Below are positions 34,142 through 37,046 of a stretch of 64,000 nucleotides of DNA, one piece after another. How positions within the stretch are numbered: the first letter of the stretch is position 1; each line of letters opens with the position of its first letter. The DNA comes from Salinibacterium sp. (GTDB lineage: Bacteria; Actinomycetota; Actinomycetes; Actinomycetales; Microbacteriaceae). The position numbers and the translations under genes were made by a program. Below the pieces are notes generated by a model, which ran no database searches, was not told the DNA's origin, and saw nothing but the letters and a program-made list of their open reading frames with translations. The stretch lies in assembly GCA_019638845.1 (NCBI GenBank), contig JAHBSZ010000005.1, forward strand, positions 1 through 64,000. The letters run 5' to 3'.

Positions 34142-34165
34142 TTTGTTAGTAAAGCTTACGAACTA
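34142..34165. promoter_or_regulatory. Candidate ROK autoregulatory operator
   Basis: A 24-bp imperfect palindrome with the core GTTAGTAAAGCTTACGAAC (34145-34163), symmetric at 9 of 12 positions per arm. It covers the -10 (34153-34148) of the ROK gene and is positioned to block it. Confidence 0.55.
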
Positions 34166-34247: not shown

Positions 34248-34658
34248 ATGAGGCTGCTCGACCAGAACAAGACCGCTGTCGCCCTACTCGGAGGTGTGGC
34301 GCTCGTGGGCGCCCTCGCGGGTTGCTCAAGCGGCGCGGCCGACTCGAGCGGGGTTCACGGCACTTACACCGACGGAACGTACACGGAGAGCGCCGACTAT
34401 CAGGCGCCCAGCGGCACGGAAACCGTCGACGTCACCCTCACCCTTGCCAGCAACGTCATCACGGCGGTCAAGGTCACGGGTCACGCCACCGACCCACAGG
34501 CCAAGACCCACCAAGGCGAGTTCGCCGGAGGCATCGCCGGGATTGTCGTCGGCAAGAATCTCGACGACATCAAGGTCGACAAGGTGGGCGGATCATCGCT
34601 GACCAGCGGCGGCTTCACCGCGGCCGTCGCACTCATCAAGGCTGACGCTGCAAGCTAG
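34248..34658 (+). CDS. FMN-binding-domain lipoprotein (probable ApbE substrate)
   Basis: A 136-aa exported lipoprotein: signal peptide with lipobox ALAGC (Cys26), then a single FMN_bind-type domain (TYTDGTYTESADYQAPSGTETVDVTLTLASNVITAVKVTGHA). The C-terminal motif VGGSSLTSGGFTAAV corresponds to the place where ApbE attaches FMN to a Ser/Thr in this fold. It would carry a covalent flavin outside the membrane and pass electrons. The AAGGAG ribosome binding site is clear. ApbE follows after 1 nt, and a membrane flavoreductase follows that, so all three probably form one redox unit. Confidence 0.88.
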   Translation: MRLLDQNKTAVALLGGVALVGALAGCSSGAADSSGVHGTYTDGTYTESADYQAPSGTETVDVTLTLASNVITAVKVTGHATDPQAKTHQGEFAGGIAGIVVGKNLDDIKVDKVGGSSLTSGGFTAAVALIKADAAS

Positions 34659-34659
34659 C

Positions 34660-35523
34660 GTGCGGCCGCACTGCCTCGCCTTCGACGCGATCGGTACCGG
34701 CTGGCAGCTCGATACCGCCGAGCCGGTCTCGGCGGATCTTGAACGCGCGATCCGGCAGCGAATCGAAACCTTCGACCGCACCTGGTCACGGTTTCGGGGG
34801 GATTCGCTCGTCTCACGTCTCGCCGCCACCCCGGGTGTGTACGAGTTTCCGGATGACGCTCCCGCGCTGTTCGACCTGTACCGCCGTCTCTACGACGCCA
34901 CGGATGCCGCGGTCAGCCCGCTCGTCGGCACAGCCCTCGAGTCCCTCGGCTACGACAGGACGTACTCGTTGCGCGCGTCCGCACACCCCGCCCCGGTTCC
35001 GGCGTGGGCGGACGCGATCGCGTGGGACGGCCACGCCCTCACTACCGTGCGCCCCGTCTGCCTCGACGTGGGTGCAGCAGGCAAGGGGTACCTCGTCGAT
35101 ATCGTGAGTGAACTGCTCCACGAGGGCGGTCACAGCGAGTTCATCGTGGACGGCAGTGGAGACATTCGACACCACGGTCCCAGCATCATCCGGGTGGGAC
35201 TAGAGCATCCGTGGGATGCGTCCAAGGCGATCGGCATCGCCAACGTCGGCGAGGGCGCGATCTGCTCGTCGGCGACCAACCGCCGCGCCTGGGGTGACGG
35301 CCTACATCACGTCATCGATGCGACCACGGGCCTCCCGACTCACGGGATTGTCGCCACCTGGGCGATCGCAGCGACGGCACTCGTGGCGGACGGCCTTGCT
35401 ACCGCTCTGTTCTTCGCCGACCCGGCCCGGCTCGCGGAGTCGTTCGATTTCACGTTCGCCCGTATGCACTCGACCGGGCGGGTAGAGTACTCGCCACACC
35501 TCGACGGAGAGATGTTCATATGA
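34660..35523 (+). CDS. apbE: FAD:protein FMN transferase
   Basis: A 287-aa ApbE/flavin transferase, which cleaves FAD and attaches FMN to Ser/Thr of target proteins. Motifs: DVGAAGKGYLVDIVSELL near residue 140, VDGSGDIRHHG, and HHVIDATTGLPTHGIVATWAIAATALVADGLATALFF with the Mg-binding Asp/Thr region. The GTG is 1 nt after the FMN lipoprotein stop, and its own stop overlaps the next ATG (ATGA). Unlike many ApbE proteins it shows no signal peptide or lipobox, which is odd because its presumed targets are outside; either flavinylation precedes export or membrane insertion, or the start is misjudged. Confidence 0.94.
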   Translation: MRPHCLAFDAIGTGWQLDTAEPVSADLERAIRQRIETFDRTWSRFRGDSLVSRLAATPGVYEFPDDAPALFDLYRRLYDATDAAVSPLVGTALESLGYDRTYSLRASAHPAPVPAWADAIAWDGHALTTVRPVCLDVGAAGKGYLVDIVSELLHEGGHSEFIVDGSGDIRHHGPSIIRVGLEHPWDASKAIGIANVGEGAICSSATNRRAWGDGLHHVIDATTGLPTHGIVATWAIAATALVADGLATALFFADPARLAESFDFTFARMHSTGRVEYSPHLDGEMFI

Positions 35524-37046
35524 AGCAATGGCTCGACCGGATGACCGGAATGGTCACCATGTACACGCTCGTGTTGGTTGTACTCGCCGCCATCGGTGTG
35601 AACGCACTCGTGCTGTCGCTGATCGGTCAGTTGTCGTACGGACCACTGCCGCTGCTCGCCTCGGCACTCGTGGCGATTCTGTTCACCGTTGCATCGAGTT
35701 GGCTGGGTGCAAAAATCATGCGGGTCGACGCGCACCTCGTGTCATCGTTCATCACGGCGTTGCTCGTGTTCTTCGTGCTACAGCCGAAGATCGATCTTCT
35801 CGGCCTCTCCAGCTTCGCCCTCGCGGGGCTGGTGGCGGGACTGTCCAAGACGCTCGTCGCGGTGCGCGGGCGCCACATCTTCAACCCCGCGGCACTGGGA
35901 GCCATCGTTCCCACGCTGCTCGTCTTCACCGGTCTCGTTCCAGGGATGAGCTTCGGAGCCTGGTGGATCGGGACGCCCCTACTCATCCCTGTCACGGTCA
36001 TCGGTGCCTTCCTCGTGCTCTACCGCACGCAGCGGCTCACCCTCGGGCTCGCCTTCATCGTGCTCGCCGGTGCCATCCTCACCGACCTGTACGTCGTGCG
36101 GGGTGCCGCGTTCCCCGACGCGCTGTCGAGCGCGCTGCTCAGCTCGCCGATCATCTTCTTTGCCGGGTTCATGTTCAGTGAGCCGCTCACGCTTCCGCCG
36201 CGGCGCTGGCAACAACTCGCCGAGGCTCTCGTCGTCGCGGTTCTGTTCACCATCCCGCTGCCACTGGGTCCAGTGTCGAACAGCCCGCTGTTCGCGCTGT
36301 TGGTCGGAAACCTGCTCGCCTTCCTCGTGGGGCAGCGTCGTGGCATCCGGCTCACCTATCTCGGTAAAGAGCAGATCGGCGCCGCGACCTGGGAGCTCAC
36401 TTTCCAACCCGCGCGGCCGGTGCGGTTCTTGCCCGGACAGTACATGGAACTCGGAATACCGCATCGCAAGGCCGACTTCCGGGGTAGCCGTCGCTACTTC
36501 AGCATCGCCTCCGCCCCGAACACTGAACGCCTCACCTTCGCCATAACGGTGCCAGCAAAGTCGAGCAGCTTCAAACAGGCACTTCTCGATCTCGAGCCTG
36601 GTCAGCTCGTGCACGGCACCAGCGTTGGTGGCGACTTCGCCCTACCGAGGAACGTCAGCGAACCTCTGCTGTTCGTCGCCGGAGGCATCGGCATCACGCC
36701 CTTCGCGAGTCAGCTCGCGCACGCGACAGAACGCGGCGAGACGCGCGACGTCGTCGTCGTCTACGCGACGAGCGCAGGAGGACCGCTGCCGTACTCCGCC
36801 CTGCTGGAGAAGTCCGGCGCGCGCGTAGTGCTGTTCGGGCCGGAGCCACCCTCGACACTCCCCCCGGGGTGGGAATATGCCGGAGAGGGGCGCATCACGG
36901 GTGAACGTCTCCTCGCCGCTGTGCCCGACGCCGCTCGACGCCGGGCGTTCGTCTCCGGACCGCCGGCCCTTGTCAACGACCTGCGGCGAGCGCTGCGCTC
37001 CCAAGGAACCAAGCGCGTTCACTCGGACTACTTCTCCGGCTACTGA
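35520..37046 (+). CDS. NqrB/RnfD-like membrane domain fused to an FAD/NAD(P) oxidoreductase
   Basis: A 508-aa two-part protein. Residues 1 to about 270 have around nine hydrophobic segments with the NqrB/RnfD hallmarks RHIFNPAALGAI (near 120) and FMFSEPLTLPP (near 220). Residues about 275-508 are a ferredoxin-NADP reductase-type module: FAD motif SRRYFSIASAP, NAD(P) motif LLFVAGGIGITPFASQ and the end VHSDYFSGY. The layout suggests electrons from cytoplasmic NAD(P)H cross the membrane through flavin to the covalent-FMN lipoprotein. The SGAT-type FMN attachment motif of NqrB/RnfD is not visible. It is coupled to apbE by ATGA. Confidence 0.88.
   Translation: MKQWLDRMTGMVTMYTLVLVVLAAIGVNALVLSLIGQLSYGPLPLLASALVAILFTVASSWLGAKIMRVDAHLVSSFITALLVFFVLQPKIDLLGLSSFALAGLVAGLSKTLVAVRGRHIFNPAALGAIVPTLLVFTGLVPGMSFGAWWIGTPLLIPVTVIGAFLVLYRTQRLTLGLAFIVLAGAILTDLYVVRGAAFPDALSSALLSSPIIFFAGFMFSEPLTLPPRRWQQLAEALVVAVLFTIPLPLGPVSNSPLFALLVGNLLAFLVGQRRGIRLTYLGKEQIGAATWELTFQPARPVRFLPGQYMELGIPHRKADFRGSRRYFSIASAPNTERLTFAITVPAKSSSFKQALLDLEPGQLVHGTSVGGDFALPRNVSEPLLFVAGGIGITPFASQLAHATERGETRDVVVVYATSAGGPLPYSALLEKSGARVVLFGPEPPSTLPPGWEYAGEGRITGERLLAAVPDAARRRAFVSGPPALVNDLRRALRSQGTKRVHSDYFSGY

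Follow-up and report, generated by a model that had tools for sequence, protein, structure and literature searches.

Three coupled genes at one locus

Our analysis confirmed that positions 34248 to 37046 on the forward strand of the window, by which we mean the whole 64,000-nucleotide stretch of Salinibacterium sp. DNA that was analyzed, hold three coupled open reading frames encoding an FMN_bind lipoprotein, the flavin transferase ApbE, and a single polypeptide joining an NqrB/RnfD-like membrane domain to a reductase. One base separates the lipoprotein gene from the ApbE gene, and the ATG of the fusion gene overlaps the ApbE stop codon as ATGA, exactly as an earlier note made from the DNA letters (here, the sequence-only reading) had placed all three frames. 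The identities that it had given to the products, one FMN_bind lipoprotein, its flavin transferase, and an NqrB/RnfD-like/FAD-NAD(P) reductase fusion, were likewise borne out by Pfam, by profiles of relatives, and by hhalign. The triplet belongs to the NQR/RNF-like flavinylation system already described in the literature, and the type of system is therefore not new. Very likely, the products of the three coupled genes move electrons taken from NAD(P)H across the membrane and deliver them to a flavin fixed to an outside lipoprotein.

The first gene (34248..34658, +) encodes a 136-aa protein with a predicted FMN_bind domain at residues 59 to 128, assigned from a Pfam match just under the cut-off (6.1e-4) and the family alignment; it is predicted to be an extracytosolic carrier of covalent FMN, and its lipobox cysteine is Cys26 in LAGC (34323..34325, +). 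The second (34660..35523, +) starts with GTG and encodes an ApbE FAD:protein FMN transferase of 287 aa that lacks a signal peptide. The third (35520..37046, +) encodes the 508-aa fusion protein.

The fusion protein

The membrane domain of the fusion lies at 35520..36359 (+). Its kinship rests on the family profile, since the window protein alone misses PF03116 (NQR2_RnfD_RnfE). An alignment of 28 relatives matched Escherichia coli RsxD in hhalign with a probability of 95.6% (E = 1.3e-8, residues 19 to 267), and PF03116 itself matches 18 of the 28 family members at E<=0.1, so that the proposed NqrB/RnfD-like character withstood the check by profile. The window fusion has nothing that corresponds to about 76 residues of RsxD, among them the flavinylated Thr187; the membrane-domain flavinylation site is thus gone because the loop that bears the covalent FMN in RnfD is gone. 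The sequence-only reading had correctly recognized that this domain lacks an SGAT-type site, but the absence that it considered unusual is a published characteristic of the group, as described in PMC11334425.

The cytosolic FAD/NAD(P)H reductase domain (36366..37046, +) carries RR-x-F-S at 36489-36503 and GGIGITP at residues 388-394, and R324, R325, G389, I390, G391, T393, and P394 are invariant in the 28 aligned sequences. This half of the protein matches flavohemoprotein, BenC, and other reductases as well as known structures (1tvc, 1krh, and others), and NAD_binding_1 (PF00175) matches 24 of the 28 relatives at E<=0.1, placing a C-terminal NAD-binding domain in the family.

A predicted variant flavinylation site in the lipoprotein

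The site recognized by ApbE has been described as D-x-x-[S/T]-G-A-[S/T] with the flavin on the last residue (PMC12052999), and the flavinylation site has also been given as [S/T]GA[S/T]-like (PMC8238504, PMC11334425). What the sequence-only reading had missed is that the lipoprotein's own site is GGSS and therefore also lacks SGAT. The variant site D-K-V-G-G-S-S, at residues 111 to 117 (34578..34598, +), keeps the Asp, the Gly, and a hydroxyl acceptor; the first Ser/Thr and the Ala are replaced, and Ser stands where Thr is normal, so that the canonical pattern is not matched. The predicted FMN acceptor is probably the second Ser of GSS, Ser117 (34596-34598). An alignment of 80 FMN_bind proteins, two of them duplicates of each other and one an MsrQ-type protein from the window's own genome, shows the Gly in all 80; the acceptor column has 70 Ser and 10 Thr, and the position ahead of it has 66 Ser and 14 Ala.

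Among the 77 distinct loci with all three genes (here including L128, an MsrQ-like locus in the window's own genome), the site reads AGSS in 49, SGSS in 10, and GGSS in 4, which makes 63 GSS-type loci. A lipobox pattern is found in 63/63 of the GSS-type lipoproteins versus 0/14 of the others. Export of a folded flavoprotein by the twin-arginine pathway was rejected as a general route, since even a loose twin-arginine pattern occurs in only 5 of the 63.

Related loci and their distribution

All three genes are present in 77 of 93 related loci, the 93 being the 95 loci examined minus L127 and L128, the other ApbE loci of the window genome. The conservation of the triplet, which the sequence-only reading had put forward as a check, thus exceeds chance. 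The remaining 16 loci are truncated by a contig or locus end, contain broken frames, or have no ApbE or FMN_bind gene that was detected (including L027, L031, L035, L107, L120, L121, and L122). Three of these, from genomes of a single genus (L107, L120, and L121 in G159, G097, and G016), hold FMN_bind and the fusion in a cluster without ApbE, with ApbE genes elsewhere in the genomes.

In a tree of 76 fusion proteins, from which L128 was left out, the 63 [A/S/G]GSS loci are all set apart from the rest by a branch supported at 100/100, in a bootstrap that had not settled and with a midpoint root that serves for drawing only. The other 13 comprise 10 SGAT/TGAT and 3 SGAS/AGAS loci, and they come from CPR/Patescibacteria, Ktedonobacter, one unclassified bacterium, and two genomes (L134 and L135) labeled with the window's phylum; given these two, GSS is not universal in the phylum. 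Further GSS sites outside the 63 are found in L132, from the same family, and in L136, from the same class and with a broken fusion frame. A metagenome-assembled genome labeled Acidobacteria (L011) lies within the GSS branch and nests in Microbacteriaceae.

The membrane domain of the fusion was matched in 118 of 299 Microbacteriaceae genomes, representing 39 of 85 genera, and in 14 of 396 genomes drawn across the phylum, where six of the 14 matches are weak, at 1e-6 to 5e-4. L137 to L142, from six further genomes of the phylum, are remote matches to the membrane domain that lie in open frames of large size or of a different kind. In L105, L017, L136, L039, and L040, the fusion frame is split or, in L105, merged with ApbE, and these cases look like sequencing errors or decay. 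The single open frame of 1044 aa in L105 could be read as a natural ApbE-fusion protein; we rejected that reading because the membrane-domain sequence there falls in two different frames, a sign of a frameshift.

ApbE and the probable site of FMN attachment

The window ApbE is a clear member of its family (Pfam ApbE, 6.9e-36), with Protein Data Bank relatives including 4xgw, and alignment with solved ApbEs (4xgw and others) matches its His and Asp. The predicted catalytic triad (35269..35391, +), for which Ser-His-Asp is named in PMC12052999, consists of Ser204 (35269-35271), His217 (35308-35310), and Asp244 (35389-35391). Each of the three is conserved in 62/62 aligned GSS loci, L022 with its broken ApbE frames being left out, and in 11, 12, and 12 of 12 other loci, respectively. 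Trp234 is found in 62/62 of the GSS group versus 1/12 of the others; we do not claim such positions as specificity residues, since they may only reflect descent.

The conserved domain of the window ApbE starts almost at the N terminus, close to the lipoprotein stop codon. A hydrophobic N terminus, the usual though not universal export signal, was sought as a mean hydropathy of >=2.0 over 14 residues within the first 40, and 0 of the 73 assessable triplet loci pass, the N termini of four others (L022, L029, L086, and L134) not being assessable. For comparison, a similar test that was less strict about the start window was applied to the 30 ApbE loci scoring best among 149 genomes of the phylum, and 24 of them pass. 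The missing signal peptide noticed in the sequence-only reading is thus real, but rather than being unusual, it characterizes the group (73/73 by this hydrophobicity test). If there is no unrecognized export route for ApbE, attachment of FMN in the cytosol would be the likeliest arrangement, and FMN may be attached there before the lipoprotein is exported.

Alternatively, within the same system, ApbE could be exported along a path that needs no classical signal peptide, flavinylation then being extracytosolic as in most studied cases. Characterized ApbEs are indeed mostly exported lipoproteins, and a cytosolic version failed to complement in one study (PMC12052999), although exceptions are known, such as the Klebsiella pneumoniae ApbE without a signal peptide described in the same paper. 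We regard this export as distinctly unlikely, given the uniformly non-hydrophobic N termini of the assessable triplet ApbEs. Moreover, the window genome holds three ApbE genes, all of them below the hydropathy threshold, so that by this test no exported ApbE is available to it.

Gene neighborhood and possible function in metal reduction

Clustering of the neighbors of 89 loci revealed no shared functional partner, and neighbor families recur in at most 26 loci. Those recurrent neighbors that could be identified are housekeeping or unrelated proteins (ROK, OmdA, HSP20), and one recurrent family is, judging from its sequence, isocitrate dehydrogenase. A near-palindrome, GTTAGTAAAGCTTACGAAC, lies at window positions 34145-34163 between a divergent ROK regulator and the lipoprotein gene and is almost identical in L005; it is perhaps a ROK operator, which would place the triplet near a sugar regulator.

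These surroundings bear on whether the system might serve mainly as a ferric-iron (metal) reductase for assimilation. VIT1 iron transporters occur in six NQR/RNF-like clusters (Meheust 2021, PMC8238504), and two of the CPR relatives have a ZnuA-family protein (L024) or a FUR-family regulator (L032) directly downstream of the fusion gene. Yet no metal gene adjoins the window triplet, and the neighbor families common to many loci are not metal genes, where identified. A search for iron-box-like sequences upstream of the 63 lipoprotein genes, using a DtxR/IdeR consensus, gave nothing above chance (best match, 13 of 19 positions) except L103, at 6% of shuffles. A primary role in metal assimilation thus seems unlikely to us.

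Proposed electron path and its weighing

We consider it probable that the locus represents a distinct actinobacterial subtype of the NQR/RNF-like system, one that would pass electrons from NAD(P)H to FMN on the outside lipoprotein, with the second Ser of GSS as the probable acceptor of the FMN and the cytosol as the likeliest place of its attachment. In our proposed model, NAD(P)H would reduce FAD in the C-terminal cytosolic domain of the fusion, from which electrons would pass to a non-covalent flavin in the NqrB/RnfD-like membrane domain, then to the covalent FMN on Ser117 of the lipoprotein at the outer face, and onward to an acceptor outside. ApbE, made from the same mRNA, would attach the FMN to the lipoprotein, taking it from cytosolic FAD in the cytosol before or during export. 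The route proposed in the sequence-only reading, in which an outside flavoprotein receives the electrons of NAD(P)H, agrees with the published model, and we likewise deduce it from homology; its further idea that the protein replaces Rnf/Nqr found no support, as nothing shows ion pumping or replacement.

Several results weigh against this reading. The window lipoprotein falls just below the Pfam cut-off for FMN_bind (20.8 bits; cut-off, 22), is not among the matches of a genome-wide PF04205 search at E<=0.001, and has no match among solved structures. Its FMN_bind assignment, weak alone, rests on its family: of 8 GSS-type relatives tested, PF04205 picks up 7 at E<=0.1, and 3 of these, the close relatives L006, L008, and L013, score above the cut-off. 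The fusion protein is similarly unmatched by PF03116 at E<=1 and lies just under the cut-off for PF00175 (3.0e-4; 21.9 bits; cut-off, 22). ApbE was not detected in the cluster at L027, L031, L035, L107, L120, and L121. The signal-peptide call is a hydropathy threshold rather than a SignalP prediction, and we found no precedent for Sec export of a flavin-bearing lipoprotein. Finally, GSS deviates at both the Thr and the Ala positions known to affect flavinylation, where a change of Thr to Ser cuts flavinylation by 10 to 55% and a change of Ala to Val halves it (PMC12052999), and the site Asp is present in only 27 of the 80 aligned FMN_bind proteins, the window protein among them, most members lacking it.

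The last two points also fit a different explanation, namely that GSS is a lost flavinylation site, that any binding of FMN by the lipoprotein is non-covalent, and that ApbE serves another protein; the departure from the published [S/T]GA[S/T]-like site and the poor conservation of the Asp count in its favor. A decayed site, however, would be expected to drift, yet GSS is fixed in 63 distinct loci, in nearly all of which ApbE is kept adjacent with its triad intact. Since the membrane domain lacks the RnfD site, the operon also offers no other acceptor. Loss of the site is, in our view, very improbable.

Returning to the distinct actinobacterial subtype, we tentatively suggest an evolutionary extension to which we give somewhat less than an even chance: the actinobacterial branch may have moved from a Thr-based SGAT site to a Ser-based GSS site in step with lipoprotein anchoring and with an ApbE dedicated to this substrate that is never exported, with FMN attached inside and the flavinylated protein leaving via Sec. 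If so, extracytosolic supply of FAD would not be needed. The Gram-positive systems studied, such as that of Listeria, supply flavin outside the membrane (PMC9973259), which a cytosolic ApbE would avoid. Such an arrangement would further represent a new ApbE substrate site, provide an easy enzyme-substrate pair for serine-based protein tagging, and offer a direct test of where flavinylation takes place.

Comparison with known systems

The closest known counterpart is the NQR/RNF-like system, of which 127 clusters with the same fusion, mainly from Actinobacteria and CPR, were described, along with the proposal that electrons run one way from NAD(P)H (Meheust 2021, PMC8238504). A complex from K. 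racemifer, which is also among the relatives that we found (L028, 33% identity), was subsequently modeled; its membrane part has no flavinylation site, and a non-covalent flavin was suggested there (Huang 2024, PMC11334425). The window triplet shares with this system the FMN_bind protein, ApbE, a single protein with an N-terminal NqrB/RnfD-like and a C-terminal NAD-binding domain, actinobacterial hosts, a membrane domain without a flavinylation site (here lacking the loop of RsxD Thr187), and, by prediction, an outward one-way transfer of electrons from NAD(P)H. The clustering of FMN_bind and ApbE genes with at least one exported product is likewise seen, in the operon and its lipobox. The actinobacterial branch differs in its [A/S/G]GSS site, predicted Ser acceptor, and lipoprotein anchor, a distinction drawn from the published text. 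We found no Ser-variant site and no Microbacteriaceae flavinylation in the open papers searched, supplements excluded. The window type also matches the Pfam models of the survey poorly: when 11 Micrococcales fusion proteins, that of the window included, were tested at E<=0.001, only 3 matched PF03116 as well as PF00175. From this result, and from the 118 of 299 Microbacteriaceae genomes in which the membrane domain alone is matched, we infer that the published survey probably missed many clusters and that its count of 127 is probably low.

Compared with Nqr/Rnf, the homologous membrane subunit (RsxD/RnfD) and an outside FMN_bind subunit are shared, but the operon holds only two subunits plus ApbE instead of six subunits, its reductase is fused, and its membrane subunit carries no covalent FMN. 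Without a second electron path, no pump is expected. PF03116 found no Rnf/Nqr subunit in the window genome, with 4 of 14 control genomes positive, though the profile misses the window protein too and distant copies are possible; a search of the genome with the window protein returned only itself and two reductase-type matches.

The MsrQ-like system likewise combines an FMN_bind protein, ApbE, and a membrane protein with an NAD(P)-binding domain, and the window genome has a copy (L128; contig C10, ~119-122 kb). There, however, the membrane part is of the heme-type Ferric_reduct family (PF01794), and the FMN_bind site is GGAT, with Thr, in a protein without a lipobox; its ApbE gene starts at the FMN_bind stop codon and encodes no signal peptide. 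A third ApbE of the same genome (L127; contig C1, ~723 kb) lies beside a membrane protein with weak Ferric_reduct/DUF4405 matches and FAD/NAD and 2Fe-2S domains, along with a Pro/Ala-rich, exported-looking protein and no listed FMN_bind gene. The cytosolic ApbE of Klebsiella pneumoniae resembles the window enzyme in lacking a signal peptide and flavinylating a partner, but that partner is a soluble cytosolic fumarate reductase (PMC12052999), whereas the partner in the window is an exported lipoprotein. Set beside these systems, the window triplet is a clade-wide variant of a known one.

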